This document shows, in pieces, positions 8,014-30,806 of a stretch of 64,000 bases of DNA. The number at the start of each line of letters is the position of its first letter. Within the stretch, counting starts at the first letter, position 1. The notes under the pieces were generated by a model, which saw nothing but the letters and a program-made list of their open reading frames with translations, ran no database searches and had not been told where the DNA came from. Source of the stretch: Bradyrhizobium sp. CCGB01 (GTDB lineage: Bacteria > Pseudomonadota > Alphaproteobacteria > Rhizobiales > Xanthobacteraceae); the NCBI RefSeq assembly GCF_024199795.1, contig NZ_JANADK010000001.1, forward strand, positions 6,820,001 through 6,884,000, in the 5' to 3' direction. A program made the translations under genes and the position numbers.

Positions 8014-10854
8014 GTGCCAGATCGTAGCGAAGACTCGGCCATTTCATTTGGGCCATTTCGACTGTTTCCAAAGTCCCGGCTCTTGGAGAAGGAGGGCTCG
8101 CCGCTTCACGTCGGCGGCCGCGCGCTCGATATCCTGATCTTCCTCGCCGAGCGCCCCGGCGAAGTCGTCGACAAGCGAGAGCTGGTCAAGCGCATCTGGG
8201 CCGACGTCAATGTCGACGAGGGCAGCCTGCGCTTCCACGTCGCAGCGCTGCGCAAGGCGCTGGGCGATACCGGCAAGTCGGCCCGTTATGTCGTCAACGT
8301 GCCCGGCCGCGGCTACTGCTTTGTCGCCTCGTTCGCGCAAACGGCCCCGCCCGCCGCTCAGCCCGTCGTTGATGTCCTGCCTCCCCGTTCCCTCCCCGCG
8401 CAACTCTCGAAGATGGTCGGACGAGAAGAGATCGTCGAGAAGATATCGAACGGGCTTTCTCTGCATCGCTTCATGACCGTGGTCGGCCCGGGCGGCATCG
8501 GCAAGACTGCCGTCGCCGTCACCGTCGGGCATCGCCGCTCCCCGGATTTCGGCGGGCGCGTTTTCTTCGTCGACTTCGGCCCGCTGCGGGATGCGAGCCA
8601 TATCGCGACCACCGTCGCCTCCGCGCTTGGCCTCACCATCAGCGCGGAGGATCCAACGCCGGCCTTGCTGACATTCCTGAAGAGCGGCCCGGCCTTGCTG
8701 ATCTTCGACAGTTGCGAGCATGTGCTGGATGCGTTGGCACCGCTTGTCGAGCGCATCGTTCGCGAGGCGCCGCAGCTTCGCGTTCTCGCGACCAGCCGCG
8801 AGTCGTTCCGGAGCGAAGGCGAGCGGATTTTCCGCCTGTTCCCGCTGGATTGCCCGCCGGAGCGCGAAGGCCTCGATGTCGCCGAGGTCCTCGCTTACCC
8901 CGCGGCCCAGCTCTTCGTCGAGCGCATTGCGCAGAGCTCGGGTCCGTTCCAGCTCAGTGCGGAAGAGGCGCCGCTCGTCGCGAGCATTTGCCGGCGCCTC
9001 GACGGCATTGCGCTCGCGATCGAGCTCGCGGCGGGCCGCGTCAACGCCTACGGCATCGCCGGCACCGCATCGCTGCTCGACAGCCGCTTCTCTCTGCAGT
9101 GGCGGGGGCGGCGCACCGCCGTGCCGCGACACCAGACGCTCGCCGCGGCGCTCGACTGGAGCTACGATCTGCTACCTCCCGCCGAGAGTGCCACGTTGCG
9201 ACGCCTGTCGGTCTTTGCCGGGCCGTTCGCGCCGGAGGCGGCTGCCGCGGTGGCGGCCGGCGACGGTCTCAGCGCCTCGGAAACGCTGGAGGCGATCGAC
9301 AGCCTGGTCACCAAATCGCTGATTTCGCCATCCGGCTCGCGGACGCTGCGCTATCGCCTGCTCGACACCACCCGCACCTATGCGCATGGAAAGCTGAACG
9401 AGCTCGGTGAAACCGGTCAGTTCGCGCGGCGTCATGCAGAGCATTTTCGCGACTTCTTCGAGCGCGCGGAGGCCGAGACATCGACGCCGCTGCCGGAATG
9501 GCTGAGCATCTACGGCGCTGAGCTGGACAATGTGCGCGCTGCATTGAACTGGGCCTTCGGGCCCGACGGCGACGCTGCACTCGGGATCGCGCTAACGGGG
9601 GCTGCCGTCACGCTGTGGGTCCGCCTGTCCCTGTTCGCCGAATGCCGCGAGCGCGCCAAAACGGCGCTCACCGCGCTCGGCGACAGCGGCGGCGATGACC
9701 GCATTCGGATGCAACTCCTGGCGGCGCTCGGCTGGTCGCTGATGTATGGCGAGGGCCGCGCCCGCGAGGCGCGTCCGATCCTCGAGACGACCCTGGAGCT
9801 CGCTGACAGGCTCGACGACAAGGACTTTCGCCTGCGCGCGCTCTGGGGCTTGTGCATCGACCAGTTCAACAACGGGCAGTTCGGCAAGGCCCGCGCCTTG
9901 GCCGACCGCTTTGCGAACGCTGCGGCGAACTCGCCCGACAGGACCGATGTCATGCTCGGCGACCGGCTGACGGCCGTGGCGCTGCACTATCTCGGCGACC
10001 AGAACGACGCACGCGTTCGCATCGACCGCGTGAACGCCTCGCTGCATGTGCTGGCGGAAAAGCCAAAAATCTTCCCGCTCGACCTCAGGATATCGACGCA
10101 ATATTTCCGCGCCCGCATCCTGTGGCTTCAGGGCCTCGCCGATCAGGCCCAGGCGCTCGCCGCCCGAAACATCGAGGAAGGCCGCGCCAACGGCCATGCG
10201 CTGACTTTCTGTAGCGTGCTCGGACAGGCCACCTGCCCGATCGCTTTCTGGTCCGGCGATTTCGAGGCCGCGGAGCGCCACGGCACCGAGCTGCTCGAAC
10301 ACACCGAGCGCCATGCCATCCGGCTGTGGGGCCTGTGGGCGCGGGCCTTCAACGCGGCGGTCATCGTCAAGCGCGGTGACGTCGCCGCCGGCCTGCCGCT
10401 GCTGCGCGAAGAGCTCAATCGCGCCGGCGATGCGCGCTTCCTGCCGCGGTTTCTCCCGCTGCTCGGCGAGCTCGCGGCGAGCTTTCTGGAGGCCGACCAG
10501 ATCGACCGCGGCCTCGACGTGATCGAGGACGTGCTGACCCGCTGCAACGACCGGCAGGAGCTCTGGTATTTGCCGGAGCTGATCCGCATCAAGGGCGAGT
10601 TGATGCTCAGGAGCGCGCGGCATTCAAGCGATGCCGAGGCGCGCTTTCGTGAAGCCATGGGCATCGCCGTCCAGCAGGGCGCGCGCTTCTGGGAGCTGCG
10701 TTGTGCAACCAGCCTCGCGCGGATCATGATCGGCGCTGGCCAGAACGCCGAGGCCCTGGCAGTTTTGGAGAAAGTCTCCGGCTCCTTCGCGGAGGGCTCG
10801 GACATCGCCGATATGCGCGTGGCCCGCTATCTGATCGCGCAATTGCGGGCCTGA
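8014..10854 (+). CDS. Winged-helix / STAND ATPase / TPR-type regulator A
   Basis: A 946-residue cytoplasmic protein. The N-terminal OmpR/CadC-type winged helix (about residues 8-105) runs from ISFGPFRL to VVNVPGRGYCFVA. It is followed by an NB-ARC-like STAND ATPase with Walker A GPGGIGKT near 158-165, Walker B LLIFDSCEH near 228-236 and LATSRESF beyond, and then a long helical, TPR-like C-terminal half. Such proteins are thought to oligomerise on DNA when a signal is sensed by the C-terminal half. I start at GTG 8014 because GAGGGGG lies nine bases upstream; TTG 7996 is possible. Genes at 21098 and 26601 are paralogs. Confidence 0.8.
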   Translation: MPDRSEDSAISFGPFRLFPKSRLLEKEGSPLHVGGRALDILIFLAERPGEVVDKRELVKRIWADVNVDEGSLRFHVAALRKALGDTGKSARYVVNVPGRGYCFVASFAQTAPPAAQPVVDVLPPRSLPAQLSKMVGREEIVEKISNGLSLHRFMTVVGPGGIGKTAVAVTVGHRRSPDFGGRVFFVDFGPLRDASHIATTVASALGLTISAEDPTPALLTFLKSGPALLIFDSCEHVLDALAPLVERIVREAPQLRVLATSRESFRSEGERIFRLFPLDCPPEREGLDVAEVLAYPAAQLFVERIAQSSGPFQLSAEEAPLVASICRRLDGIALAIELAAGRVNAYGIAGTASLLDSRFSLQWRGRRTAVPRHQTLAAALDWSYDLLPPAESATLRRLSVFAGPFAPEAAAAVAAGDGLSASETLEAIDSLVTKSLISPSGSRTLRYRLLDTTRTYAHGKLNELGETGQFARRHAEHFRDFFERAEAETSTPLPEWLSIYGAELDNVRAALNWAFGPDGDAALGIALTGAAVTLWVRLSLFAECRERAKTALTALGDSGGDDRIRMQLLAALGWSLMYGEGRAREARPILETTLELADRLDDKDFRLRALWGLCIDQFNNGQFGKARALADRFANAAANSPDRTDVMLGDRLTAVALHYLGDQNDARVRIDRVNASLHVLAEKPKIFPLDLRISTQYFRARILWLQGLADQAQALAARNIEEGRANGHALTFCSVLGQATCPIAFWSGDFEAAERHGTELLEHTERHAIRLWGLWARAFNAAVIVKRGDVAAGLPLLREELNRAGDARFLPRFLPLLGELAASFLEADQIDRGLDVIEDVLTRCNDRQELWYLPELIRIKGELMLRSARHSSDAEARFREAMGIAVQQGARFWELRCATSLARIMIGAGQNAEALAVLEKVSGSFAEGSDIADMRVARYLIAQLRA

Positions 10855-17838: not shown

Positions 17839-19152
17839 TCAGATCGACTGGCGTAGCGGGCGGAATGCGGTACGCATTTCCGCAGAGAACAGCGCGGGCT
17901 GCTCCCAGGCCGCGAAGTGACCGCCCTTGTCGAGGCGGTTGTAGTGCATCAGCTTCGGATAGGCTTTCTCGGCCCAGCTGCGCGGCGCGGCGTAGATCTC
18001 ATCGGGGAAGACGCTGACGGCGACCGGGATCCTGATGTGCTTGGGCTCGAAGAACACCAGCTTGTTCTCCCAGTACAGCCGGGCCGATGACACCGCCGTG
18101 TTGGTGAGCCAGTAGAGCGTGATGTTGTCGATCACATCGTCCCGCGATAGCCCCTCTGTTTTGCCGTCGAAGACGCGCGCGATCATCGCGGCGCTGCGCG
18201 CATCATGATCGAGCATCCAGGACGCCAGACCCGCCGGCGAGTCCACGAGGCCATAGAGCGTCTGCGGCCGGTTCGACATCTCGATCGCATAGCCGAGACC
18301 GTGCTTGTAGAAGTCGTCGAGCTGGTCGTAGGCAATGCGCTCGTCGGCCGAGAGATTGGACGGCCGCGTTCCGCCGGGCTGCAGCGCCTTGGCGACGTCA
18401 TCGGGAACGGTGGCAGGCATGTTGGTGTGAATGCCGAGCAGCTCCGGCGGCGCGATCACCGCCATCTGCTCCGTCACGGCATTGCCCCAATCGCCGCCTT
18501 GCGCCACGTAACGGCCGTAGCCGAGTCGTTTCATCAGCACGATCCAGGCGCGCGCGATGCGCTGGGGATCCCAGCCCAGCACCGTCGGCTTGCCGGAGAA
18601 GCCGTGGCCGGGCAGCGAGGGGATCACCAGATCGAAGGCGTCCGCGGCCTTCGCGCCGTGCGCGGTCGGATCGGTGAGCGGGCCGACGATCTTCATCTGT
18701 TCGATGATCGATCCGGGCCAGCCATGCGTGACGATCATCGGCAGCGCATTGTCGTGGCGGGAGCGGACGTGAATGAAGTGGATGTCGACGCCGTCGATCT
18801 CGGTGACGAATTGCGGCAAGGCGTTCAGCCGCGCTTCCATCTTGCGCCAGTCATAGTCGCTCTGCCAGTAGCGCACGAGCTGCTGCACCGTCGTCAGCTG
18901 CACGCCCTGCGACTGGTCGGCGACGATCTCGCGATCTGGCCAACGCGTCGTAGCGAGACGGCGACGGAGGTCAAGCAGATCCTCCACGGGCACGTTGACG
19001 CGGAAGGGGCGGATCGCGCCGCTCGCTGCGGCCTTCGCCGGACGCAGCGGCAAGAGGCTCGATACGCTGGCGGCAACCGCGGTCATCGCAGCCTGGCTCA
19101 GCAATTGGCGGCGATCGGGGTTGAGGATGTCGGCACGTGCTGGCGTGGTCAT
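17839..19152 (-). CDS. Exported epoxide hydrolase (EHN-type alpha/beta hydrolase)
   Basis: A 437-residue protein. The N-terminus carries DRRQLLSQAAM and a hydrophobic stretch (possible Tat signal). The EHN domain follows (PFRVNVPVEDLLDLRRRLA, TRWPD), then an alpha/beta hydrolase core with HGWPGS, the nucleophile Asp in QGGDWGNA (near residue 221) and His in KGGHFAAWEQP (near 412). Members open epoxides to diols. I choose ATG 19152 for its AAGGGAGA site; upstream codons to 19260 are unlikely because they would cover the TAAC-repeat promoter. First gene of a pair with the crotonase-fold gene. Confidence 0.88.
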   Translation of the reverse strand: MTTPARADILNPDRRQLLSQAAMTAVAASVSSLLPLRPAKAAASGAIRPFRVNVPVEDLLDLRRRLATTRWPDREIVADQSQGVQLTTVQQLVRYWQSDYDWRKMEARLNALPQFVTEIDGVDIHFIHVRSRHDNALPMIVTHGWPGSIIEQMKIVGPLTDPTAHGAKAADAFDLVIPSLPGHGFSGKPTVLGWDPQRIARAWIVLMKRLGYGRYVAQGGDWGNAVTEQMAVIAPPELLGIHTNMPATVPDDVAKALQPGGTRPSNLSADERIAYDQLDDFYKHGLGYAIEMSNRPQTLYGLVDSPAGLASWMLDHDARSAAMIARVFDGKTEGLSRDDVIDNITLYWLTNTAVSSARLYWENKLVFFEPKHIRIPVAVSVFPDEIYAAPRSWAEKAYPKLMHYNRLDKGGHFAAWEQPALFSAEMRTAFRPLRQSI

Positions 19153-19251
19153 TAAAATCTCCCTTGCTTTGGTCGGTGACGCTGACCGACTTGAACTCGA
19201 CGCGTCGTTTCGTCGTGGAGAGAGATTGACGCGGACATGCGCAATCGGCTC

Positions 19252-19275
19252 GTTATGCATTGTTAGGCTGCGTTA
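19252..19275 (-). promoter_or_regulatory. TAAC direct-repeat site upstream of epoxide hydrolase gene
   Basis: Read on the minus strand, TAAC occurs three times in exact 10-base register (19272-19275, 19262-19265, 19252-19255) and is followed by GAGCC. It ends 99 bases before the start codon. The core CCTAACAATGCATAACGAGC differs by one base from the site at 24838-24857 before the PfpI gene. Confidence 0.7.
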
Positions 19276-19415
19276 GCCGTTGCGAGCCGCCCAACACCGA
19301 TAGAGCGCGGTCGGTGGCCCGCGATGCGCGCGGCGAAAACGACGCGGCGCGCGATGAACTCGGTCATCGCGCGCCGTGCCGGCCTGCATCAGTCGAAGCG
19401 TTCGTGCTGTCGAAC

Positions 19416-20105
19416 TCAGGATGGCAGCGGCTGACCCGCCTGCTCACGAACGATGTAATCGGCGTACCAATCGGCCCAGTTCTCGTCGTGCCCCCCGGTC
19501 CGCGTCTCGTGCTCGCCATGTGCTGCCGCCGCGCGGCGCATGGCCGCGGCCAGCTCAGCCTGCGAAGCGAATGTCGTGCCGTCGCCCGCGATGCGCCCCG
19601 GCAGTCGCGTGGTGACCTCCTGGAACAGCCAGCCGTTGCCGTCGGGATCGCAGAACGAGGCGAACGAGCTGTAGCTGCCGCGCTTCGGGTCAGCACCGCT
19701 CACGCGAACGTTGCCGAACAGATACGGCTCGTCGCGCCCGGCGTGAACGTCGCCGGCACCATGGAATGGCTCGCTCACCGCGATGCCGCGGTCGAGTAAA
19801 TTCCGTCGGGCTGCCTCCAGATCAGAGACGATCAGATACAGGCCGCGCGCAGAACCGGGCGCTGCCGGCGTGACGTTCCTGCCAAAAATCACCGAACAGG
19901 CCGAGCCGGGCGGCGTGAACTGGATCACGCGCCATTCGTCAGCTGAGGCAAAATCGGCGTCCAAGCGCCAGCCGAGCAGCGCATAGAAGGCCTTGGCGCG
20001 GTCGACATCGGACACGGGGATGACGACGACCTCGAGCTTCAGATCAACACTAGGCGATGTCGAAGACTTGACCGCGGCGTCGCGGTCGATTTCGAGTGTG
20101 GCCAT
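19416..20105 (-). CDS. VOC-superfamily (glyoxalase-like) protein
   Basis: A 229-residue protein. Its core, from LEVVVIPVSDVDRAKAFYALLGW to YSSFASFCDPDGNGWLFQEV, is a full beta-alpha-beta-beta-beta VOC module of two halves. About 60 further residues contain a helical, His-rich tail ending in NWADWYADYIVREQ. VOC proteins bind a metal and act on lactoylglutathione-like, aromatic or antibiotic substrates; the actual one is unknown. The start ATG has CAGGGAG in front. It lies 32 bases downstream of the HisKA_2 kinase gene and is likely its operon partner. Confidence 0.82.
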   Translation of the reverse strand: MATLEIDRDAAVKSSTSPSVDLKLEVVVIPVSDVDRAKAFYALLGWRLDADFASADEWRVIQFTPPGSACSVIFGRNVTPAAPGSARGLYLIVSDLEAARRNLLDRGIAVSEPFHGAGDVHAGRDEPYLFGNVRVSGADPKRGSYSSFASFCDPDGNGWLFQEVTTRLPGRIAGDGTTFASQAELAAAMRRAAAAHGEHETRTGGHDENWADWYADYIVREQAGQPLPS

Positions 20106-20137
20106 GTCGAACTCCCTGAGTTGAAATTGAGAGACCG

Positions 20138-20806
20138 TCAAGCGGCGGCGGGCATCACGATCGTCACCCGCGTGCCGCCCTGCCCCGCCTCGCCCTGCAA
20201 CCGTGCGTCGATGCTGCGTGCGAGCCCTTCGAGGATACGGCTACCCGTCCCCTGAAGCGGAGCGGTCGCCCCGATGCCGTTGTCGGCCACCGTGCAGAGC
20301 CAGGCGCCGTCGCGGCTGGCAATTTCGATGCGGATCAGCGCATCGCTCTTGTTCGGGAAGGCATGCTTGGCCGCGTTCGTGACGAGCTCGGTCAGCATCA
20401 ACGCGAGCCGATGACACTGCGAGGCCGGCAGCGTGCCGCTTTCGATCGCAGCCTCGCAGCGGATCCCCGCCGGCTGCAGCACGGCCTCGGAGATCGCTTC
20501 GCACAGGTTTTCGAAGAAGGCCTCGACGGAGACGGCGGACAGATTGTCGCTATCAGACAAAAGTTGATAGAGCCTGCCGAACGCGACGATGCGCCGCTCG
20601 AACCGGTCCACCGCAACCGAGACGTCCCTGGGACCTGCCCGCGTAAAATCGCGACGGACTGACGCACCCAGCAGCGTCAGCGTGTTCTTCATCCGGTGGT
20701 GGGATTCCCGCAGCACGAGTTCCCAATCACGCGACTGATCGTCAAGACTCGCCACATATTGCGATCGAACGACGTCGTCGCTCGTCCCTAAGCCGATAGC
20801 GGACAT
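20138..20806 (-). CDS. Soluble HisKA_2-type sensor histidine kinase without sensor domain
   Basis: A 222-residue cytoplasmic kinase core. The phosphoacceptor box is ESHHRMKNTLTLLGA (His near 37) and the ATPase domain has ELVTNAAKHAF, DNGIGA and a terminal GGTRVTIVMPAA. No membrane helix, PAS or GAF domain precedes the core, so the input must come from a partner protein. No response regulator is adjacent. I choose ATG 20806 because GGGGAGG lies six bases upstream; 20827 is also possible. Heads a two-gene operon with the VOC protein, with a TAAC-repeat site upstream. Confidence 0.85.
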   Translation of the reverse strand: MSAIGLGTSDDVVRSQYVASLDDQSRDWELVLRESHHRMKNTLTLLGASVRRDFTRAGPRDVSVAVDRFERRIVAFGRLYQLLSDSDNLSAVSVEAFFENLCEAISEAVLQPAGIRCEAAIESGTLPASQCHRLALMLTELVTNAAKHAFPNKSDALIRIEIASRDGAWLCTVADNGIGATAPLQGTGSRILEGLARSIDARLQGEAGQGGTRVTIVMPAAA

Positions 20807-20875
20807 GATTGCCTCCCCGTTGGACATCGAACCTAACTCGAAGCCTATACTGGATGCACCGCGCGCGTTTGGCTC

Positions 20876-20899
20876 GTTAGACGTTGCAAGATTCTGTTA
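20876..20899 (-). promoter_or_regulatory. TAAC direct-repeat site upstream of HisKA_2 kinase gene
   Basis: On the minus strand: TAAC at 20896-20899, a degenerate TTGC at 20886-20889 and TAAC at 20876-20879, each 10 bases apart, followed by GAGCC. It ends 69 bases before the start codon at 20806. Confidence 0.6.
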
Positions 20900-21055
20900 T
20901 GATCGCCGGCGTCGCCATGCGTGGCGGCCGGACTGTCCTCAACGGTCAAGGACGCTGACGAGTCGTCCCGATCGCTTCACAAGCCGCTCGCGTTTGAGCA
21001 AAATTTGTGACGGATAGTCCCGGCACAGTCGGCCGATTGCCGCGCGATTTCGCCA

Positions 21056-21098
21056 CTTTCGGTTAGTTTACTCACGACCTCGTTCTGCTAGATCAGAA
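21056..21098 (+). promoter_or_regulatory. Conserved upstream element shared by regulator genes A and B (copy B)
   Basis: This is the partner of the block at 7932-7974 (34 of 43 identical positions). Here the block runs into the ATG at 21098. If it is a promoter, translation may instead begin at the GTG at 21131, which aligns with the preferred GTG start of gene A. Confidence 0.55.
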
Positions 21099-23968
21099 TG
21101 CAAACAACAGCCCACTGGAATCATTGGCCCGTGCCGGACACGAACGACCAGGATGCGGCGATTTCCTTCGGGCCATTCCGGTTGTCCCCCAAGTCACGCC
21201 TGCTCGAGAAGGACGGGGCTCCGCTTCACCTCGGCGGCCGCGCACTCGACATTCTCATTTTTCTCGCCGAACGCGCGGGTGAGGTCATCGACAAGCGTGA
21301 GTTGATCAAGCGCGTGTGGGCCGATGTAACCGTCGACGAGGGCAGCCTGCGCTTCCACATCACGACGCTGCGCAAGGCCCTGGGCGATGCCGGCGAAGGC
21401 TCCCGCTATGTCGTCAACGTGCCCGGCCGTGGCTATTGCTTCGCAGCCCCGCTGATCCGGGCCTCGGAGCAGCGGACAGGCCCGGCCGTCCCGTCGCCTC
21501 ACGCGCTCCCCTCACCGCTTGCCCGGATGATCGGACGAGACGACGCGGTCGAACGCATTTCCACCGAGCTTGCGCAGCATCGTTTCGTGACGATTGTCGG
21601 CCCCGGCGGGATCGGCAAGACCTCGGTCGCGCTCGCGGTCGCGCATGGCGAACTCCAGGCCTTCGACGGCCAGGTCAGCTTCGTTGATTTCGGCGCGCTG
21701 ACGGACGCCAGGCTCGTTCCCGGCACCATCGCCGCCGCGCTCGGGCTGACCGTCAATTCCGAGGACCCGATGCCGGGCCTGCTGACGTTCCTGCGCAACC
21801 GGCGAACGCTGCTGATCTTCGACAGCTGCGAGCACATCATCGACGAGCTCGCGCCTCTGGCCGAGCACATCGTCCAGGAAGCGCCGGAGCTGCACGTTCT
21901 CGCCACCAGCCGCGAATCCTTCCGCACCGAAGGCGAACGCGTCCATCGGCTGTTTCCGCTGGATTGCCCGCCGCAGCGCGACGGGCTCGGCATCGCCGAC
22001 ATCCTTGCATATCCTGCAAGCCAGCTCTTCGTCGAACGCATTGCCGAGAGCCTCGGCGACTTCGAACTCAGCGAAGAGGATGCACCGCTTGTTGCCGAGA
22101 TCTGCCGGCGACTGGATGGCATCGCGCTCGCGATCGAGCTCGCCGCCGGACGCGTCAACGCCTATGGCATTGCCGGCACTGCCTCGCTGCTCGACAGCCG
22201 CTTCTCGCTGCTGTGGCGGGGGCGCCGCACCGCAATCCCGCGGCACCAGACCCTGAGCGCGGCGCTTGCCTGGAGCTATGATTTGCTGCCGGCAGCCGAA
22301 AGCGCAACGCTGCGTGGATTGTCGGTGTTCGTCGGGCCATTCACGCTGGAGGCCGCGCTCGCCGTCGCGTCCAGCCAGGGTATCGGCGAACCCGAGGCGG
22401 TCGAGGCGATCTCGAACCTGCTCTCCAAATCACTGATCGCAACCTCGCCTGCGGAGCGGCGGCTGCGCTATCGTCTGCTCGACACCACCCGCGCCTTCCT
22501 CGGCGAGAAGCTCGTCGAGAACGGCGAAGCGACCCGCGTTGCGCGCGCGCACGCCGAATATTTCCGCGACCTCCTGCGCGACATCGCACTCAAATCCACG
22601 GGCATGCAGACCGCGGGCGGCTTCCTGCCCTATGCCGACCGTCTGCCCAACGTCAGGGCCGCGCTGACCTGGAGCTTTTCCGACAGTGGCGACCGGGCGA
22701 TCGGCGTGGACCTCGCGGCCTCTGCTGCGCAGTTCTTCCTCGAGCTGACATTGCTGACGGAGTGTTTTCGCTGGACGCAGCAGGCACTGACCGCATCCGA
22801 TGCGCCCCCATTGAACAGCCGTCAGGAGATGACGCTTCAGGCCGCGCTCGGCGTCTCCGTGATGTTCACGCAAGGCAATACTGAGGCGGTCCGGTCGGCG
22901 TTCACGCGCAGCCTTCAGCTTGCACAGGAGCTCGAGGATTCGCACTGGCAGCTCTGGCTGCTGCGCGGTTTGCACATCTACTTGACCCGGGTCGGGGACT
23001 TTCATGGCGCGCTCGGCACCGGCGAGCAGGGCGAGAGCGTTGCGCGCAAGCTGAATGATCCAGCCGCCGCGCTGAACGTGGAATGGATGCTGGGCGTCGC
23101 GCACCATCTGATCGGCAATCAGGACAAGGCCGTGCAGTTCTGCGAGAGCGCGATGGTGCACAATCCCGGCTCGCAGCGGCTGAACATCGGGCATCTCGGC
23201 TATGACGACCGCATTGTGGCGCTGGTCGCTCTGGCGCGCGGGCTCTGGCTCACCGGCCAGCCCGATCGCGCGATCGAGGCCGCGAGATACACCGTTCGCG
23301 AGGCCGAGCTGCTCGAACAGCCGCTCACCCTCGGCATCTCCCTGATCTGGACGATCTACGTATTCCTCTGGGTCGGCGACTGGGCCAACGCCGAAATCCT
23401 GATCGAGCGGTTGATCGACCACTCGGCGCGGCACTTCCTCGGTCCCTATCACGCCGTCGGCATCGGCCAGAAGGGCGAACTCATGCTTCGCCGCGGCGAC
23501 ATCGCCGGCGGGATCGAGCATCTTCGCCGCAGCCAGGCCACGCTGTACGCGACGCGGCACCGGATCATGACGACGGTGTTTGCGACGGTGCTGGCGGAGG
23601 GCCTCGTGGCGGAGAACCAGCCGGACGAGGCCTTGCGCACGATCAACGAGGCCATTGCGCAGATTCCCGATCATGGCGAATCCTTCGACATGCCGGAGAT
23701 GCTCCGGGTCAAAGGCGACATCCTCGTCCGCTCGGGCAACGCCGCGGAGGCCATGAGCTGCTTCCGGAAATCGCTCGATCTGTCGCGCCGGCAGAGTGCG
23801 CTCGGCTGGGAATTGCGCGGGGCGATCAGCCTCGGCCGGGTCTGGCGCCAGGCCGGACAAGCGGACGAAGCACGCGCCCTGCTCGCCCCGCTCGTCGCGC
23901 GCTACCAGGAAGGCCTCCAGAGCCGCGATCTCGTGGCCGCCAGGGAGCTCCTGAGCGCGCTGAATTGA
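21098..23968 (+). CDS. Winged-helix / STAND ATPase / TPR-type regulator B
   Basis: Up to 956 residues, closely similar to regulator A over its whole length. An OmpR/CadC-type winged helix (ISFGPFRLSPKSRLLEKDG to VVNVPGRGYCFAA) is followed by Walker A GPGGIGKT near 168-175 and Walker B LLIFDSCEH near 238-246. The block IELAAGRVNAYGIAGTASLL is shared word for word with A, and a helical-repeat C-terminal half follows. The winged helix should bind tandem direct repeats. The gene sits centrally among the six TAAC-repeat promoters and is a candidate to read them. The start may be GTG 21131 rather than ATG 21098. A short inverted repeat (23971-23988) follows the stop but has no T run. Confidence 0.8.
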   Translation: MQTTAHWNHWPVPDTNDQDAAISFGPFRLSPKSRLLEKDGAPLHLGGRALDILIFLAERAGEVIDKRELIKRVWADVTVDEGSLRFHITTLRKALGDAGEGSRYVVNVPGRGYCFAAPLIRASEQRTGPAVPSPHALPSPLARMIGRDDAVERISTELAQHRFVTIVGPGGIGKTSVALAVAHGELQAFDGQVSFVDFGALTDARLVPGTIAAALGLTVNSEDPMPGLLTFLRNRRTLLIFDSCEHIIDELAPLAEHIVQEAPELHVLATSRESFRTEGERVHRLFPLDCPPQRDGLGIADILAYPASQLFVERIAESLGDFELSEEDAPLVAEICRRLDGIALAIELAAGRVNAYGIAGTASLLDSRFSLLWRGRRTAIPRHQTLSAALAWSYDLLPAAESATLRGLSVFVGPFTLEAALAVASSQGIGEPEAVEAISNLLSKSLIATSPAERRLRYRLLDTTRAFLGEKLVENGEATRVARAHAEYFRDLLRDIALKSTGMQTAGGFLPYADRLPNVRAALTWSFSDSGDRAIGVDLAASAAQFFLELTLLTECFRWTQQALTASDAPPLNSRQEMTLQAALGVSVMFTQGNTEAVRSAFTRSLQLAQELEDSHWQLWLLRGLHIYLTRVGDFHGALGTGEQGESVARKLNDPAAALNVEWMLGVAHHLIGNQDKAVQFCESAMVHNPGSQRLNIGHLGYDDRIVALVALARGLWLTGQPDRAIEAARYTVREAELLEQPLTLGISLIWTIYVFLWVGDWANAEILIERLIDHSARHFLGPYHAVGIGQKGELMLRRGDIAGGIEHLRRSQATLYATRHRIMTTVFATVLAEGLVAENQPDEALRTINEAIAQIPDHGESFDMPEMLRVKGDILVRSGNAAEAMSCFRKSLDLSRRQSALGWELRGAISLGRVWRQAGQADEARALLAPLVARYQEGLQSRDLVAARELLSALN

Positions 23969-24013
23969 CAGTATCTTCAACGAGATACCACCAAAACACC
24001 TGCTCGCAATTCC

Positions 24014-24027
24014 TAACAACTTCTAAC
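24014..24027 (+). promoter_or_regulatory. TAAC direct-repeat site upstream of unknown gene 1
   Basis: TAAC at 24014-24017 and 24024-24027, 10 bases apart, followed by ATGCC. It lies 59 bases before the ATG at 24087 and directly after regulator gene B. Confidence 0.55.
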
Positions 24028-24086
24028 ATGCCAAGCCGCACCCGCCCCGCCATGGTGGTGACGCTTCACGGTGGACATGGCGGGAT

Positions 24087-24794
24087 ATGGCGCTTCTTGA
24101 CGATGTGATTGATGCCAGCGGCGGTATGGCCCGCTGGAATAGCTTGAACCGGTTCACGCTCCACCTTTCCGTCGGCGGCTCGCTGTTCTCCAGCGCCGGA
24201 CATGCCAGCGAATTCAAGGACGTGACGGCGGAGGGCTCGACCCGCACCCAGTCGGTCCGCTTCACCGGCATCACCGGGGGCGAACACTCCGGCTGCTTTC
24301 AGCCCGACGCGATCACGATTGAGAGTCTCGAGGGCGAGGTCCTGCGCACCTGGAACAACCCGAGCCTTGCGTTTCCCGAGACCGGCTCTCCTACGCTGGC
24401 GGACGAACTTCACCTCGTCTTCTTCTGCGGCGTTGCGATCTGGAATTATCTGACCAACCCATTCATGCTCGCCCATCCCGACGTCGTCACGGAGGAGCTC
24501 ACTCCATGGCGCGAGAACGCCGACACCTGGCGGCGACTGCGGGCGCAGTTCCCGCCACACCTGATCACGCTCGCCCCCGAGCAGATCTTCTACTTCGATG
24601 AGAATGCCCAGCAACGGCGGACGGATCACGATCTCTTCGGAACGAAGGTCGCGCATCACTCCTGGGCCCACGACAATTTCGGCGGCATCGTCGTGCCGAC
24701 GCTGCGGCGCGCACAAACGTTGCGGCCGGACGGAACCGTGATCGCCAAGCCCGTGCTGATGGACGTCGAGATCTTCGACGCCGTGTTCGAGTAG
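24087..24794 (+). CDS. Unknown protein, paralog 1 of a two-member local family
   Basis: A 235-residue soluble protein without signal peptide or membrane helix. I recognise no named domain. It shares a pattern with the gene at 25875: an N-terminal GG-x-x-RWN, a central W-x-Y-x-x-x-PF, then PWRENADTWRRLRAQFP, an EQ-x-FYF motif, a basic RR-x-DH/Y pair and a VPT-x-RR region. The alternating short strands suggest a beta-rich fold, possibly LolA-like, but that is a guess. It follows regulator B and has its own TAAC-repeat site. Confidence 0.6.
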   Translation: MALLDDVIDASGGMARWNSLNRFTLHLSVGGSLFSSAGHASEFKDVTAEGSTRTQSVRFTGITGGEHSGCFQPDAITIESLEGEVLRTWNNPSLAFPETGSPTLADELHLVFFCGVAIWNYLTNPFMLAHPDVVTEELTPWRENADTWRRLRAQFPPHLITLAPEQIFYFDENAQQRRTDHDLFGTKVAHHSWAHDNFGGIVVPTLRRAQTLRPDGTVIAKPVLMDVEIFDAVFE

Positions 24795-24838
24795 CGGCGA
24801 CGCGCGAGAGCAGGCAACCGGTCACTGCTCTCAACGCC

Positions 24839-24852
24839 TAACAATACATAAC
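24839..24852 (+). promoter_or_regulatory. TAAC direct-repeat site upstream of PfpI gene
   Basis: TAAC at 24839-24842 and 24849-24852 in 10-base register, followed by GAGCC. It lies 136 bases before the ATG at 24989, leaving room for a leader that contains a hairpin. Confidence 0.65.
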
Positions 24853-24949
24853 GAGCCAACGGGCGGCCCTGGGTGCAGATTGGGCTCGCGGGCAACGAAC
24901 AAATGTCGTGCTCGAACGAGACCGAGGCCGGCGCATCTCCACCACGGGG

Positions 24950-24976
24950 GAGTGCGTCATTGCAGTGAACGCACTC
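24950..24976 (+). promoter_or_regulatory. Leader hairpin abutting the PfpI ribosome site
   Basis: A perfect 8-base-pair stem, GAGTGCGT at 24950-24957 and ACGCACTC at 24969-24976, has an 11-base loop. Its last base touches AAGGAGA, the ribosome binding site of the next gene. It could modulate translation or shield the leader. Confidence 0.5.
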
Positions 24977-24988
24977 AAGGAGACCGTC

Positions 24989-25690
24989 ATGAAGATTCTT
25001 ATGGTTCTCACCTCCCACGACCAGCTCGGCAACACCGGACGCAAGACGGGCTTCTGGCTCGAAGAGCTTGCTGCCCCCTATTACGTTTTCAAGGATTCCG
25101 GCGCGGAGATCACGCTGGCTTCGCCCAAGGGCGGCCGTCCGCCGCTCGACCCCAAGAGCAACGAACCCGATTCTCGCACCGATCTGACGCTTCGCTTCGA
25201 AGCGGACGCCGCTGCGGAAGCCCAGCTCGACAAGACCGTTCGCCTCGACAGCGTCAGGCAAGAGGACTTCGACACGCTGTTCTATCCGGGTGGCCACGGC
25301 CCGATGTGGGACCTCGCCGAAGACCCGAACTCGGTCAAGCTGATCGAGTCGTTCTTTGCCGCCGGCAAGCATGTCGCGATCGTCTGCCACTCTCCGGCGG
25401 CGCTGCGCCACGTCAAGACGCCGGACGGCAAGCCGCTGGTGCAAGGCAAGGAGGTCACCGGCTTCACCAACGGTGAGGAGGAGGCAGTTGGGCTCACCAA
25501 GGTGGTTCCGTTCCTGGTCGAGGACGAGATGCTGCGGCTCGGCGCCATCTTCTCGAAGAAGGCCAATTGGACTCCTCACGTCGTCAGCGACGGCCTCTTG
25601 ATCACCGGCCAGAACCCGCACTCGTCGGGCCCGGCCGCAGAGGCCCTGCTCGCCGCCCTCAGGGGCAAGCCGCTGGCGAAGGCTTCGTAA
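24989..25690 (+). CDS. DJ-1/PfpI-superfamily protein (Hsp31-like class I amidotransferase fold)
   Basis: A 233-residue protein. The nucleophile elbow is AIVCHSPAAL with Cys near residue 133. FYPGGHGPMWDL is the upstream conserved turn and TGQNPHSSGPAAEALL the C-terminal one. Relatives act as glyoxalase III/deglycases, chaperones or stress proteins. The start is fixed by AAGGAGA five bases before the ATG. A role against reactive carbonyls would fit the epoxide hydrolase and VOC genes that share the same promoter motif, but this is inference. Confidence 0.87.
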   Translation: MKILMVLTSHDQLGNTGRKTGFWLEELAAPYYVFKDSGAEITLASPKGGRPPLDPKSNEPDSRTDLTLRFEADAAAEAQLDKTVRLDSVRQEDFDTLFYPGGHGPMWDLAEDPNSVKLIESFFAAGKHVAIVCHSPAALRHVKTPDGKPLVQGKEVTGFTNGEEEAVGLTKVVPFLVEDEMLRLGAIFSKKANWTPHVVSDGLLITGQNPHSSGPAAEALLAALRGKPLAKAS

Positions 25691-25711
25691 CTTCCGGATG
25701 CGGCCACATCT

Positions 25712-25739
25712 CGAGAGGCGCCCGCGATGGCGCCTCTCG
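25712..25739 (+). terminator. Strong hairpin after the PfpI gene
   Basis: A perfect 11-base-pair stem (CGAGAGGCGCC / GGCGCCTCTCG) with a six-base loop starts 21 bases after the stop. There is no T run, so it may stop transcription by another route or protect the 3' end. Confidence 0.55.
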
Positions 25740-25782
25740 ACGCTGCGGTATCCCTCGGAGAAGACGCGATGATGAATCCCGC

Positions 25783-25806
25783 CAACGGCACTTAACAACG
25801 CTTAAC
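25783..25806 (+). promoter_or_regulatory. TAAC direct-repeat site upstream of unknown gene 2
   Basis: CAAC at 25783-25786, TAAC at 25793-25796 and TAAC at 25803-25806, each 10 bases apart, followed by GAGCG. It lies 68 bases before the ATG at 25875. Confidence 0.65.
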
Positions 25807-25874
25807 GAGCGGTGGTCTGTACCAGGGAGTATCTCCAGCGGGGCGACTTCACCCCTGCGAGAGGGAATGGCCCG

Positions 25875-26594
25875 ATGATCCCGTTGCTGGCGAGTGCGAT
25901 CGAGGCCCATGGCGGGCTCGATCGATGGAATGCCCACAGACGCCTCACCGCCACGATCGTGACGGGCGGCGATCTCTGGGTCTTGAAGGGCATCGATCAG
26001 GACCAGGCGCCGCGCATGGTGCGGATCGAGCTGCATCGCGAGCGGGCCGCCGTGGAGCCGTTCGGCAAGCCGGGCCAGCGCACCGAGTTCAGCCCGGAGC
26101 GGATCGCCATCGTGGCCGCGGACGGTCGCATCGCCGCGGTGCGCAACGATCCGCGCGGCTCGTTCGCGCGGCACGATATGCGGACGCATTGGGATCCGCT
26201 GCATCACGCCTATTTCAGCGGCTACGCGCTCTGGACCTACATGACCGCGCCGTTCCTGCTGGCGCTGGACGGGTTCGAGGTCCGGGAGATCGCACCCTGG
26301 CGCGAGGGCGCGGAGGTCTGGCGCGGCTTGCGGGCGACGTTCCCCACCGTCATCGCAAGCCACAGCGCCGAGCAGGATTTCTATTTTGGCCCCGACATGC
26401 TCATGCGCCGGCACGACTACCGGGTCGAGATCGCCGGCAATTTTCCGGCGGCTCATTATGTATTCGATCCCGTCACCGTTGACGGCTTCACGCTCCCGAC
26501 CCGCCGGCGGATCTATCTGCGCGGCGACGATCTGATGCCGCTGCGTGAAGAGCTGATGGTGTCGATCGATCTCGCGGATTTCCGGTTTGACTGA
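25875..26594 (+). CDS. Unknown protein, paralog 2 of a two-member local family
   Basis: A 239-residue soluble protein, similar to the product of 24087. Shared features are AHGGLDRWNAHRRL, ALWTYMTAPFLLAL, APWREGAEVWRGLRATFP, AEQDFYFGPD, RRHDYRVEIAG and LPTRRRIYLRG. No catalytic motif or named domain is recognised. I start at ATG 25875 because GAGGGA precedes it; a GTG at 25812 overlaps the repeat region and is unlikely. Its stop lies six bases from that of the convergent regulator C. Carrying the same promoter motif as paralog 1 suggests a shared role. Confidence 0.6.
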   Translation: MIPLLASAIEAHGGLDRWNAHRRLTATIVTGGDLWVLKGIDQDQAPRMVRIELHRERAAVEPFGKPGQRTEFSPERIAIVAADGRIAAVRNDPRGSFARHDMRTHWDPLHHAYFSGYALWTYMTAPFLLALDGFEVREIAPWREGAEVWRGLRATFPTVIASHSAEQDFYFGPDMLMRRHDYRVEIAGNFPAAHYVFDPVTVDGFTLPTRRRIYLRGDDLMPLREELMVSIDLADFRFD

Positions 26595-26600
26595 GCCTTT

Positions 26601-29474
26601 TCAGGCAGATGCATCGTCCAGCATGAGCCGCGCCGCCGTCAGATCCGCGGTCTCGAATCCTTCCGAGAACCGGGCATAGGTTGCGGCGAGATCGTCGCAC
26701 GGATCTTGCAGGCCCTGCTGGCGCCGAAGCGCCGCAAGCGACATCGCGGTCCGCAATCGCCAGGACAGGGCGCCCTGTTGCTCGGCCAGTTTGAGCGATA
26801 CGGCAAAGCTCGCCTCGGCGGCATCGAGATCACCGGTGCGCGCCTCGAGGTCGCCGCGCCGGCGGAGCAGCTCGGGCATGTCAAAAGCTCCACCGCCCTG
26901 CTCGACGCGGGCAATCGTCTCGTGCAGAACCTGCAGCCCTTCCGTCAATCGCCCCAGGGCCGCCAAACCTTGCGACAGGTCTGCGGCGAACGCAGATGCG
27001 TAGAGCTCGTAGCGATCCGCGTGCAGGCGTGGCAGCGCACTGCGCAGCAGATCGATGCCGCCAGCCACCTCGCCGCGGGCGATCATGGTCTGCGCGCGAA
27101 AGCCGGTCGCTACGGCCTCATAGGGGCCGAGCCCGTGCACGCTCGCATGCGTTGCCAGGCGTGCGGTCATCGTCTCGACGGCAGCCCAGTCGCCGACCCA
27201 ACCAAACACCGAGGATGACCAGCACAGCGCGATGCAATGCATCACCACGTCGCGCGGTGCAGCCGCACCGACGAGCGGGCGGACGCAGTCGAGCGCGCGT
27301 TCGGGAAAGCCGCGCAGCCACAACACGCGCGCGAGGGGAATCTGCGGCGTGCGTGAATAGGCGAAATGCCCGGGCTCTGTCCCGCGCAGCGCGGCATCGT
27401 CACGCACGCCCTCGTCGAGATGGGCCTGCGCTGCTGCCTGGTCTCCGGCAAGATGATAGGACACGCCGAGAAGCGCCTTGCTGCCTGCAATTCCCGCGGT
27501 ATCGCCGATCAGGCGGGCGACGCGCTCGGCCTGGAGTGCGGTCGGCAGCAGATGCCGGTAGTCGCCGGTGCGGCGATAGAACATGTTCAACCGCGACAGC
27601 AGCCTGAACGCATTGGCGTGATCGCCGAGCGCTTCCGCGATCTCCAGCCCGCGCCGGAGTGCGGCCTCGGCCTGCTCGCTGTTGCGCTCCGTGAACATGA
27701 AGGCGTGGCCGAGCGTCGACTGGAGCTCGAGTTCCCATTTGCCGCCCCGGTTGGCATCGTCGAGCGTCGCGAGCGCGCGGCCCGACCAGATGCGCGCCTC
27801 GTTCAGCAGATTGAGTTCGACGAACAGCCTCGCAGCACTGCCGGCGAGCGGCACGCGCAAGGCGGCTCCATCGTCATTGGCAAAACTCCATTCCAGCGCC
27901 GCACGGGCATCCGCGAGCAGGCTCGCGCGCTCCTGCAGGCGGGACGCCTGATCGCCGCCCTGTTCCGCCATGCCGGCTTCGAGCGCGCGCTGAACATATG
28001 CGGTGTGACGGCGCGCGATCGTGGCCGCTTCACCTGCGTCGACCAGCTTCTGCATGGCATAGGCGCGCGTGGCATCCAGCAGGCGATAGCGCCGCGATGC
28101 GCCATCGGGCTGCGCCGACACCAGCGACTTGGCCACGAGCTGCTCCAGCGCATCGGCGACACGATCGCCTGGCGCTCGTTCGTCCGCCGCGACCGACATT
28201 GCGCCCCTGAGCGTGAAGGGGCCAGCGAAGATGGCGAGCCGCTGGAACACGGCCCGCTCGTTGTCGCCGATCAGGCCAAAGCTCCAGTCGAGTGTCGCGC
28301 CGAGCGTCTGCTGCCGTGGCGGCGCCGTTCGCCGTCCACGCCATTCGAGCTTGAGCCTGGAGTCGAGCAGCGCGGCCATCTCCCGCAATCCGTAGACGCC
28401 GACGCGCACGGCGGCGAGCTCGATCGCGAGCGCAATGCCGTCAAGCTTGCCGCAGATCTCGGCGAGGACCTCGGCATCCTCATCGGTGATATCGCCCCGA
28501 TGGCCTGCGGCCGCGGCACGATCGATGAACAGCTGCGCGGCCGGGTAATCCAGCACTTCGCCTGCACTGAGGCGAGCGCCTTGCGGCGGGCCGGCCAGCG
28601 GAACGAGCTCGAAGATCTGCTCGCCTTCCACCAGCAGCGACTCGCGGCTGGTGGCGAGAATGGCAATGCCCGGCGCCTCGCGATAGATGTTTTCTGCCAG
28701 ACGAGCGACCTCGTCGATGACGTGTTCGCAGCTGTCGAGGATGAGAAGTAGTCGCCGTGCGCGCAGAAAATTGACGATGCTGCCGGAGGGATCATCGTGA
28801 TGCACCACGAGGCCCAGAGCGGCGGCAACCGTGCTCGCGACCAGCGTGGCGTCCCTCAGCGGGCCGAATTCGAGGAAATGAACGTGGCCTTCGAATGCCT
28901 GCCACATGTCATGCGCGAGCGCGGTCGCAACCGTGGTCTTGCCGATGCCGCCCGGTCCTCGCAGCGTGACGAAGCGGTCGCTCAGCAGACGCGCCGACAG
29001 CTCGGGCAGCACGTCGTCCCGACCGATCATCCGGTCCAGCCGATGCGGCAAGGCCGCCGGCGGTGCCGCGGGTACCCGCGATGCGGGCACCGGCGCAGCG
29101 TTGCGCTCTCCACGTTGCACGGGCGCGACGAAGCAATAGCCCCGGCTCGGAACGTTGGTGATGTAGCGGGCTCCATCCTTGCCGTCGCCGAGCACCTTGC
29201 GCAGCTCGGCGACATGGACGCGCAGGCTGATCTCCTCGACCGCGAGGCCGGACCACGCGTAGGCAAGGATCTCGTTCTTCGGTACCACTTCGCCGGCGCG
29301 GCTGAGGAGCAGACGGAGAATGTCCATTGCGCGGCTGCCGAGCTTGACCGGCGCGCCGTTTCTCTCGAGCAACCGCGACCGCAGCGAAAACGGTCCGAAC
29401 GAAACGGCATCGAGATCGAGGCTCGCCCCGGCGCCGCTGCGGGGGGCGCGATGTCCTGCCGGGAGCTCGGTCAC
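26601..29474 (-). CDS. Winged-helix / STAND ATPase / TPR-type regulator C
   Basis: About 957 residues, more distant from A and B than they are from each other. The winged helix begins at VSFGPFSLRSRLLERNG and ends YITNVPSRGYCFVA. Walker A is GPGGIGKTTVA near 173-180, Walker B LLLILDSCEH near 238-247, then LATSRESLL and a long helical C-terminal half. The start is uncertain: GTG 29474 gives a length like A and B, while an open frame reaches 29567. It is divergent from the AraC gene across about 350 bases and convergent with unknown gene 2. Confidence 0.78.
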   Translation of the reverse strand: MTELPAGHRAPRSGAGASLDLDAVSFGPFSLRSRLLERNGAPVKLGSRAMDILRLLLSRAGEVVPKNEILAYAWSGLAVEEISLRVHVAELRKVLGDGKDGARYITNVPSRGYCFVAPVQRGERNAAPVPASRVPAAPPAALPHRLDRMIGRDDVLPELSARLLSDRFVTLRGPGGIGKTTVATALAHDMWQAFEGHVHFLEFGPLRDATLVASTVAAALGLVVHHDDPSGSIVNFLRARRLLLILDSCEHVIDEVARLAENIYREAPGIAILATSRESLLVEGEQIFELVPLAGPPQGARLSAGEVLDYPAAQLFIDRAAAAGHRGDITDEDAEVLAEICGKLDGIALAIELAAVRVGVYGLREMAALLDSRLKLEWRGRRTAPPRQQTLGATLDWSFGLIGDNERAVFQRLAIFAGPFTLRGAMSVAADERAPGDRVADALEQLVAKSLVSAQPDGASRRYRLLDATRAYAMQKLVDAGEAATIARRHTAYVQRALEAGMAEQGGDQASRLQERASLLADARAALEWSFANDDGAALRVPLAGSAARLFVELNLLNEARIWSGRALATLDDANRGGKWELELQSTLGHAFMFTERNSEQAEAALRRGLEIAEALGDHANAFRLLSRLNMFYRRTGDYRHLLPTALQAERVARLIGDTAGIAGSKALLGVSYHLAGDQAAAQAHLDEGVRDDAALRGTEPGHFAYSRTPQIPLARVLWLRGFPERALDCVRPLVGAAAPRDVVMHCIALCWSSSVFGWVGDWAAVETMTARLATHASVHGLGPYEAVATGFRAQTMIARGEVAGGIDLLRSALPRLHADRYELYASAFAADLSQGLAALGRLTEGLQVLHETIARVEQGGGAFDMPELLRRRGDLEARTGDLDAAEASFAVSLKLAEQQGALSWRLRTAMSLAALRRQQGLQDPCDDLAATYARFSEGFETADLTAARLMLDDASA

Positions 29475-29700
29475 TTCTGACTCATCTTGACGGCCACTTC
29501 GTTCAAATTCGCGGCGACTATACCCGCCGTCGACGCGCGGTCCAGCAGGGCACCGCGCCGGCCTCACACCCGCACATCGATCGCCGCGCGATGTCCTGCA
29601 ATGTCCTCACACCGCACCGATTCACGCAAATCGTTGAAAAAATGGACAAAATCAAACGTCCTGCGGCGGGCTGTCACACCTTATGTGCGCGCACAAAATC

Positions 29701-29724
29701 TAACACCTCCTAATCATCACTAAC
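29701..29724 (+). promoter_or_regulatory. TAAC direct-repeat site upstream of AraC gene
   Basis: TAAC at 29701-29704, TAAT at 29711-29714 and TAAC at 29721-29724, exactly 10 bases apart, followed by GGGCT. It lies 98 bases before the ATG at 29823. The rest of the 348-base gap between regulator C and this gene shows nothing else I can support. Confidence 0.65.
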
Positions 29725-29822
29725 GGGCTTCTTGCCCGGCTCACGCCTATCCTCGGACCATGGAAAGCATTGAGAGTTGGCCGAGCGTTGCAAGCGGCGG
29801 CGAGGCCAGGAGAGGACGCGCG

Positions 29823-30806
29823 ATGTTGACTGACTTGCAGGCGGAGCATGCCTGGACCGAATTTCCCGCCAGCCAGCGTGATCGCGAGGTTTCGCACGAG
29901 ACGCCGGCCATCGCCCGGGAAAGCGGATGGCGCAAGATCGACCGCGGCCCGGACGCGGCCATCACGGACATCACGATTTCGCGATGGGAGGACTCTCGGG
30001 CCATCTCGTCGCACGAAGCGACGACGCCGGAGGATCGATATTTCGTCGGCATCGCCTTGAAGACCGCCCGGGTGAAGCTGGTCCGGGGCCGTCAGATCAT
30101 TTTCGACGGCACCATGCCCGCGGGGACGCTGTATGTCAGCGCACCATCGAATCTTCTCGGCGTGCAATTCCAGTCGCCGTGCGCTTTCCTGCACTTCCAC
30201 ATCTCGTCCGATCATTTTCCGGCGGCGTTGCCCGCGACCGAGGGCCTCAATGACCTCATCCTGCTGCGCGATCCGCTCGCCGCCGAGCTCGCCAAGGCAC
30301 TGATCGAGGGTGGCGATGCCGCAGACCAGCAGTTCGCGCGCTGCATCGGCCAGACCCTTGCGATGCATCTGACCCGGCTCGAGCTGCCGCGCGCAAAGGT
30401 CAATGCCTTGCCGAAATGGCGGCTCCGGCGCGTCGAGCAGTATATCGCCGATCACTTTGATCGCTGCATCAGCCTGTCCGAGCTCGCCAATGTCGCAGGC
30501 CTCTCCCGGATGCATTTCGCGGCACAGTTCCGCGCCGCGACCGGCTACCGCCCGCGCGAATATCTGCTCAATCACCGGGTCGAGTACGCGAAGACCTTGC
30601 TCACGACGACCGAGCGGCCCCTTGCGGAGATCGCGCTTGCCGTCGGCTTCAGCACCCAGGCGCATTTTTCGACCGTGTTCAAGCGCATCAGCGGCCAGTC
30701 TCCGGCACGCTGGCGCCTGACCACCAAGGCCGTGCGGCCTGCTGCGGAAGCGCTTCCGCGGCGCCGTCCTGCTGCGGACAGCGACTGGATGGGCGCGGCC
30801 GCGTAG
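29823..30806 (+). CDS. AraC-family transcriptional regulator
   Basis: A 327-residue protein. The C-terminal AraC/XylS double helix-turn-helix (about residues 215-315) includes LSELANVAGLSRMHFAAQFR and LAEIALAVGFSTQAHFSTVF. The N-terminal half is a cupin-like ligand domain. I choose ATG 29823 for AGGAGAGG upstream; 29760 is possible. Divergent from regulator C and preceded by a TAAC-repeat site, so it may be a downstream regulator in the same circuit. Confidence 0.88.
   Translation: MLTDLQAEHAWTEFPASQRDREVSHETPAIARESGWRKIDRGPDAAITDITISRWEDSRAISSHEATTPEDRYFVGIALKTARVKLVRGRQIIFDGTMPAGTLYVSAPSNLLGVQFQSPCAFLHFHISSDHFPAALPATEGLNDLILLRDPLAAELAKALIEGGDAADQQFARCIGQTLAMHLTRLELPRAKVNALPKWRLRRVEQYIADHFDRCISLSELANVAGLSRMHFAAQFRAATGYRPREYLLNHRVEYAKTLLTTTERPLAEIALAVGFSTQAHFSTVFKRISGQSPARWRLTTKAVRPAAEALPRRRPAADSDWMGAAA

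Follow-up and report, generated by a model that had tools for sequence, protein, structure and literature searches.

Six genes in a 64-kb window of Bradyrhizobium sp. CCGB01 (bases 6,820,001-6,884,000 of a single-contig 9.3-Mb genome; the window always means this whole stretch) are preceded by TAAC direct repeats in exact ten-base steps, and the question raised by this locus is which protein reads them. The initial annotation pointed to winged-helix/STAND proteins that lie inside the cluster (B and C) or near it (A), and domain searches agree that A, B and C are such proteins. The account that we regard as quite probable is that ligand-gated activators of the A/B/C family, each with a winged helix-turn-helix (wHTH) and a STAND ATPase, read these 10-bp operators of a detoxification regulon.

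Operator sites and their fixed distance to a downstream hexamer

All six sites of the initial annotation are present in the window, each directed at the next gene as had been claimed. On the minus strand, the operator of the epoxide hydrolase gene (19247..19275) consists of three TAAC units and GAGCC, with a fourth unit, CGCAAC, reaching upstream to about 19285, and that of the kinase/glyoxalase-like operon (20871..20899) reads TAAC-TTGC-TAAC followed by GAGCC. On the plus strand are the operators of X1 (24004..24032; TCGC(AA)-TAAC-TAAC, then ATGCC), the PfpI gene (24829..24857; TCTC(AA)-TAAC-TAAC, then GAGCC), X2 (25783..25811; CAAC-TAAC-TAAC, then GAGCG) and the AraC-type gene (29701..29729; TAAC-TAAT-TAAC, then GGGCT). 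These tails are the ones first reported, and in the window sites the final unit is always TAAC, followed by two variable bases and GC. Three repeats had been claimed for four of the six sites; ortholog alignment gives three units in all six, some of them degenerate (the first unit of the X1 and PfpI sites), and four before the epoxide hydrolase. The claimed distance of 59-136 bases to the gene start hinges on the choice of start codons, and the AraC and kinase genes probably start at 29823 and 20806.

A search for TAAC-N6-TAAC with at most one mismatch gave 8 matches in the window, all 8 of them inside five of the six sites (19252-19275 on the minus strand; 24014-24027, 24839-24852, 25783-25806 and 29701-29724 on the plus strand); the sixth, at 20876-20899 on the minus strand, reads TAAC-N6-TTGC-N6-TAAC. 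This number of matches is by itself mildly unusual (chance mean 3.6; at least 8 in 4 of 100 shuffles) and is therefore weak evidence if taken as proof on its own. Across the 9.3 Mb, the exact form TAAC-N6-TAAC-GNGC occurs 5 times, three of them inside this cluster. A sequence profile of the sites (R1), with the best 150 of 1487 first-look candidates scored, gave 10 hits at E<=10 and 8 at E<=0.0036, the best hit after these eight having an E of 0.67. The eight strong sites among the scored candidates are the six of the window and two elsewhere in the genome, one before a gene for a MOSC-flavoreductase-ferredoxin fusion and one before a gene for a SoxC-like sulfite dehydrogenase. The genome-wide motif scan, which had been suggested as a check, thus agrees with a regulon.

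Conservation was scored in 63 loci with relatives of B, plus the window, using a matrix built from the eight sites of this genome; a site was a hit of at least 20 bits on the right strand within 350 bp, and orthologs with less than 350 bp upstream or under the identity thresholds were dropped. A site stands before every scored ortholog of the epoxide hydrolase (45/45), the kinase (58/58), X1 (63/63), PfpI (16/16) and X2 (10/10), before 49 of 53 AraC orthologs, and before 15 of 58 glyoxalase-like orthologs. For the four AraC misses, the gene was only partly aligned and its start had to be extrapolated; each has a site close by. The alignment of orthologous promoters, the other check suggested at the outset, thus finds the sites conserved before their target genes. 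At the same loci and threshold, no site was found before the regulators themselves (A 0/37, B 0/62, C 0/27) or before the neighbouring genes AKR (0/16), TetR (0/18) and ECH (0/37). Beyond the scored intervals, only 18 hits of at least 18 bits occur in 1.43 Mb; the AraC misses supply 4 of them, and of the 14 that remain, 11 stand at the position of the PfpI site in loci without a scored PfpI ortholog. One of the 63 loci comes from a record titled 'Frankia sp. RB7' (L114, JAUEPE010000001.1); it is the B cluster of Bradyrhizobium, 84% identical and flanked by the customary genes, and this assembly is probably mislabelled or contaminated.

Weighted by gene, 254 compared sites show just two columns above 1 bit downstream of the repeats, namely +19 (A, 0.98) and +23 (T, 0.85). 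These two columns define a hexamer, xANNNT, at one fixed distance and outside the scored motif, which we infer to be a -10-like element. On that assumption the GAGCC tail covers -35 to -31, with the TAAC units near -39, -49 and -59, and a tail on the -35 position with a -10 at a fixed distance points to activation. The register was retested on sites around other family members, with the -10 playing no part in finding them, and near-duplicate sites were removed (40 to 26 at family loci, 11 to 11 at plasmid loci). The hexamer was at the expected offset in 17 of the 26 non-redundant family sites (runner-up offset, 3), and A at +19 was present in 23 of the 26. At the plasmid loci the hexamer was in register in 6 of 11 and the A present in 10 of 11; without the three sites of one Bradyrhizobium plasmid, these counts become 3 and 7 of 8.

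In the window, the fixed register predicts the following elements. On the minus strand they would be CAATCT for the epoxide hydrolase (19223..19228; transcription start site, TSS, at about 19216) and CAGTAT for the kinase operon (20847..20852; TSS about 20840). On the plus strand they would be CATGGT for X1 (24051..24056; TSS about 24063), CAGATT for PfpI (24876..24881; TSS about 24888), TATCTC for X2, which is without the T at +23 (25830..25835; TSS about 25842), and TATCCT for the AraC-type gene (29748..29753; TSS about 29760).

The A/B/C regulator family and its association with the operator

Regulators A (7996..10854, plus strand), B (21098..23968, plus strand) and C (26601..29567, minus strand) each have an N-terminal wHTH (Trans_reg_C, PF00486; 57.4, 59.2 and 53.3 bits, respectively, against a cut-off of 26.2) and the P-loop GPGGIGKT; the start codons of A and C are probably further in. 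TPR matches are clear in B and weak, under Pfam's cut-off, in A and C, and the features expected of STAND proteins were found (P-loop, NOD fold and helical-repeat sensor). B, as modelled with AlphaFold (mean pLDDT 79.6, pTM 0.59), matches Apaf-1, 6mfv (a solved STAND-TPR protein) and MalT; because the VIA-align/Foldseek rows are mostly STAND and helical-repeat chains, they are uninformative on the wHTH. The recognition helices of A (DEGSLRFHVAALRKAL) and B (DEGSLRFHITTLRKAL) are nearly identical, that of C being EEISLRVHVAELRKVL; L-R and L-R-K in this helix are invariant across 15 aligned members, and more distant paralogs vary. A family member at E<=1e-80 was found in 44 of 100 genomes (own genome included), with up to 8 scored per genome, and most members are annotated merely as 'winged helix-turn-helix domain-containing protein'.

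The genus survey found an ortholog of A in 74 of 213 genomes, of B in 76 and of both in 65, an ortholog of C in 42 of 207 (own genome included in each case), and a profile R1 site in 105 of the 207, with the best 25 first-look candidates scored per genome. Among the 207, a site is present in all 89 that have A, B or C. Another four, each with A or B and absent from the 207-genome match table (G248, G250, G251 and G252), were followed up with the best 136 candidates scored per genome, and 4 of 4 have sites, bringing the totals to 93 of 93 genomes with A, B or C versus 16 of 118 without. Of 59 same-genus relatives, 41 have a family member at E<=1e-80, and 25 of these have a site, as against 1 of the 18 others; this exception is G016, whose single site is its MOSC promoter.

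Sites persist in every genome that has just one of the three regulators, be it A (8 genomes; C unchecked in two of them), B (9) or C (8), and loci fetched from each kind show the sites in place. The nine strict only-B genomes are those left from 11 with B and without A when G169 and G175, which also have C, are set apart. In the seven B-only loci that remain after removal of G157, which has a partial A elsewhere, a site stands before X1 in 7 of 7. The first comparison was ascertained on B, and B as sole owner of the motif was rejected: among nine genomes with A and without B, eight larger loci keep the sites before X1 (8/8) and AraC (8/8), and the ninth (G033) was seen as L173. C was rejected as owner as well, many site-bearing loci being without C, though C-only genomes have arrays too. 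Regulator pseudogenes were considered as evidence of redundancy and set aside, since in five checked cases the stops fall in an over-extended N-terminus. Because sites are kept in genomes with just one of A, B and C, the operator looks family-wide, and the simplest reading of the co-occurrence is an operator shared by paralogs. The original proposal of a regulon read by the OmpR/CadC-type winged helix of nearby STAND proteins is thus supported by the scan, the promoters and the co-occurrence, as predicted binding and with no single owner among the regulators.

The association extends to 80 loci fetched around family members other than B orthologs, A-only and C-like loci included, in which all 256 4-mers were counted at spacings of 0-20 and combinations with at least 12 occurrences were ranked. 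TAAC-N6-TAAC (24) and TAAC-N16-TAAC (18) are near the top, the mean for TAAC at spacings other than 6 being 2.1; TAAC-N6-TAAC is exceeded in ratio by TTAA at spacing 16. An excess of TCGA-N17-TCGA is spread over many loci, which rules out one tandem array as its source. The matrix gives 27 hits of at least 20 bits in these loci; simulated sequence that keeps the dinucleotide transitions gives 0.4. In some paralog groups the array is a variant one: regulators of the G000:1044071 type have TCAC-TCAC-AAAC, for example, in the gap to their divergent gene. Paralogs of this type (L178-L182, L185-L190 and L212-L214) mostly carry TCAC-N6-TCAC-N6-(A/C)AAC-GGG in that gap, and these variants are a naturally occurring case in which to test whether operator and recognition helix covary.

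Sites are also found in other genera. Fifteen plasmid loci were chosen and fetched (14 outside Bradyrhizobium), and sites of at least 17 bits within 6-10 kb of the regulator are present in 8 of the 15, and in 7 of the 14 outside Bradyrhizobium. The site lies before an epoxide hydrolase gene in Rhizobium leguminosarum and between divergent Ohr and epoxide hydrolase genes in Ensifer canadensis, and Phyllobacterium has sites before Ohr and before an alpha/beta hydrolase. Paraburkholderia has a site with no annotated gene within 1 kb downstream, and Variovorax has one in an unannotated record. The full xANNNT is in register at the Paraburkholderia, Variovorax and second Phyllobacterium (alpha/beta hydrolase) sites.

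Several observations weigh against reading of the operators by the A/B/C family. Inheritance as a linked gene island, together with the phylogeny of the genus, explains much of the co-occurrence, and the only-A, only-B and only-C genomes may contain further paralogs able to do the same work. Many of the 80 loci have no hit of at least 16 bits within the fetched +-5 kb, the remaining 7 of the 15 plasmid loci have no site of at least 17 bits, and the Rhizobium, Ensifer and Phyllobacterium Ohr promoters keep only the A of the -10 and not the T. Furthermore, no operator was found before A, B or C, so no autoregulation ties the regulators to the motif. The unlinked MOSC target, considered as a clean test, does not separate genomes with A, B or C from those without. 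Of 41 listed copies with at least 76% identity, 37 were examined and all have the site, 36 of 36 where the genome has A, B or C and likewise the single one where it has none of the three (G016, a draft 89% complete in which no family member reaches E<=1e-80). Copies of 70-74% lack the site whether A, B or C is present (5 genomes) or not (7 genomes), and a 67% copy in G123, which has A and B, has one. Those of 70-74% probably form a clade of their own, both kinds being present in G151, and this with/without contrast is therefore uninformative; relatives of the MOSC fusion at E<=1e-200, found in 75 of 207 genomes and in some cases without the site, probably span more than one clade.

Alternatively, the operators might be read by a different regulator encoded elsewhere, for example a classical response regulator of the OmpR type that may be connected with the HisKA_2 kinase, with the STAND genes as mere neighbours. 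The kinase gene itself has a site, no response regulator is among the 19 scanned window proteins, and the 16 site-bearing genomes without A, B or C would be accounted for. We nevertheless consider such a regulator unlikely: some of those 16 genomes (G020, G031 and G051) have TAAC arrays beside other paralogs, the sites, including those of other genera, cluster beside STAND paralogs that differ widely from one another and in their gene neighbours, and the same-genus relatives show the difference given above (1/18 versus 25/41).

Predicted mode of action and related systems

If the A/B/C family does read the operators, its members would act as one-component regulators in which the OmpR-type winged helix stands at the N-terminus, the STAND ATPase follows, and a helical-repeat (TPR) sensor forms the C-terminus. 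A ligand on the sensor would, after the example of MalT and Apaf-1, open the ATPase, and the protein would then assemble. The resulting array of winged helices would fill successive 10-bp units (at about -69, -59, -49 and -39), one wHTH per unit, on one face of the DNA and directly upstream of the -35 position, which holds a poor -35 (GAGCC), and the bound array would recruit RNA polymerase to the weak xANNNT -10. The regulon would comprise the epoxide hydrolase, the glyoxalase-like protein, DJ-1/PfpI, the kinase, AraC, X1/X2, the MOSC-flavoreductase and the SoxC-like protein, and with an operator common to paralogs, several sensors could feed it. We infer activation from the weak -35, the array upstream of it and the ligand-gated STAND architecture, which resembles that of MalT (PMC4381067).

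The same sites and regulators might act in the opposite sense, with A, B and C as repressors at the -35 that are released by ligand. The array does touch the -35 position, as this would require, but its repeats are all upstream and extend in the direction that leads away from the promoter, the -35 sequence is a poor one, and MalT and AfsR, which the regulators resemble in architecture, are activators (PMC4381067, PMC10936776); repression is thus improbable. An origin of the motif as a repeat of mobile or structural kind (attC-like or REP-like), spread by recombination and not serving as an operator, is hardly credible, since nothing was found for it beyond a superficial TAAC likeness to integron sites, whereas the sites are oriented to the next gene at a constant -10 distance, are lacking before the scored neighbours and have just two strong copies elsewhere in the genome.

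Tandem wHTH domains on direct repeats beside a -35 are an already known class of motif. Response regulators of the PhoB/OmpR type place tandem wHTH domains on direct repeats upstream of the -10 and next to the -35; the present operators share the tandem direct repeats upstream of the -10, but no receiver domain was found in A, B or C (Pfam, E<=0.001). The DNA-binding domain of MalT is of the LuxR type and C-terminal, whereas the winged helix of A, B and C is N-terminal, and no C-terminal LuxR-type helix-turn-helix was found in them at the same threshold. CadC and ToxR, one-component wHTH regulators, are membrane proteins with a periplasmic sensor. The wHTH of the family is closest by sequence, among solved structures, to that of CadC (5ju7, E 6.1e-12); unlike CadC and ToxR, however, A, B and C carry a STAND ATPase and, judged by mean hydropathy over 19 residues (maximum 1.6-1.7 in the three), show no convincing membrane segment.

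The nearest studied wHTH-STAND-TPR protein at direct repeats is AfsR, with 11-bp repeats in a box from -40 to -19 (PMC10936776). Large SARPs such as Streptomyces AfsR have a wHTH-BTAD-NB-ARC-TPR layout (PMC10972967). The A/B/C family resembles AfsR in its N-terminal OmpR-type wHTH with NB-ARC/STAND and TPR regions behind, and in an operator of direct repeats that sits at the -35 where both the -35 and the -10 of the promoter are weak (PMC10936776, PMC10972967). Unlike AfsR, A, B and C show no BTAD match (Pfam, E<=0.001), and B has only a weak match to the AfsR NCBIfam (22.7 bits against a cut-off of 1430). The step is 10 bp and not the 11 bp usual for SARPs, and the array extends upstream from the -35, at about -69 to -31, unlike the AfsR box; units of 10 bp are reported for PimR of Streptomyces (PMC10972967). 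The SARP operator pattern, with heptamers at the usual 11-bp period overlapping the -35 into the spacer, does not describe the present sites, and with no BTAD, a 10-bp step and an upstream array, SARP membership is not claimed.

Among the literature matches listed (titles and abstract openings, most subscription papers being outside this scope), no description of this family's operator and regulon was found, and the family is common in Bradyrhizobium yet little studied. A broader and more tentative possibility, which we hold somewhat less likely to be right than wrong, is that a large, multi-copy STAND family, present in rhizobia and in part of the Burkholderiales, has held to a single DNA code (10-bp TAAC repeats, GAGC at -35 and a fixed -10) while its sensors diverged, with several ligands converging on promoters of detoxification genes that they share. 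If true, regulators could be lost or swapped without rewiring of their targets, and the locus would offer a natural case of paralogous sensors under one promoter code. A defined operator and predicted start sites make the regulon, the ligand and the mechanism directly testable.

Target genes

The functions of the target enzymes, which we take from their family names, suggest defence against epoxides, hydroperoxides, aldehydes and sulfite, and a detoxification theme for the regulon would follow from this. The epoxide hydrolase (17839..19152, minus strand) has the Pfam domains EHN and alpha/beta hydrolase; its N-terminus, as read from the sequence, is presumably Tat-like. The kinase/glyoxalase-like operon (19416..20827, minus strand) encodes a HisKA_2/HWE-type kinase (20138-20827) and an overlapping glyoxalase-like protein (19416-20141), and the candidate kinase start, an ATG at 20806, is preceded by the ribosome-binding-site-like sequence GGGGAGG. 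The DJ-1/PfpI family protein, assigned by domain match, is encoded at 24908..25690 on the plus strand. For the AraC-type regulator (29823..30806, plus strand; open reading frame 29760-30806), the predicted TSS at 29760 implies that the gene probably starts at the ATG at 29823.

X1 (24087..24794, plus strand; 235 amino acids) and X2 (25875..26594, plus strand; 239 amino acids) are paralogs with 31% identity over 240 columns, and their family has no Pfam or NCBIfam match. Among the 120 names listed of 365 X1 relatives, all are 'hypothetical' or 'uncharacterized' protein. The MOSC/YiiM-like, flavoreductase and ferredoxin fusion (L053:6781-8604; G000 4,224,780-4,226,604, minus strand) lies far from the cluster and has a strong operator.

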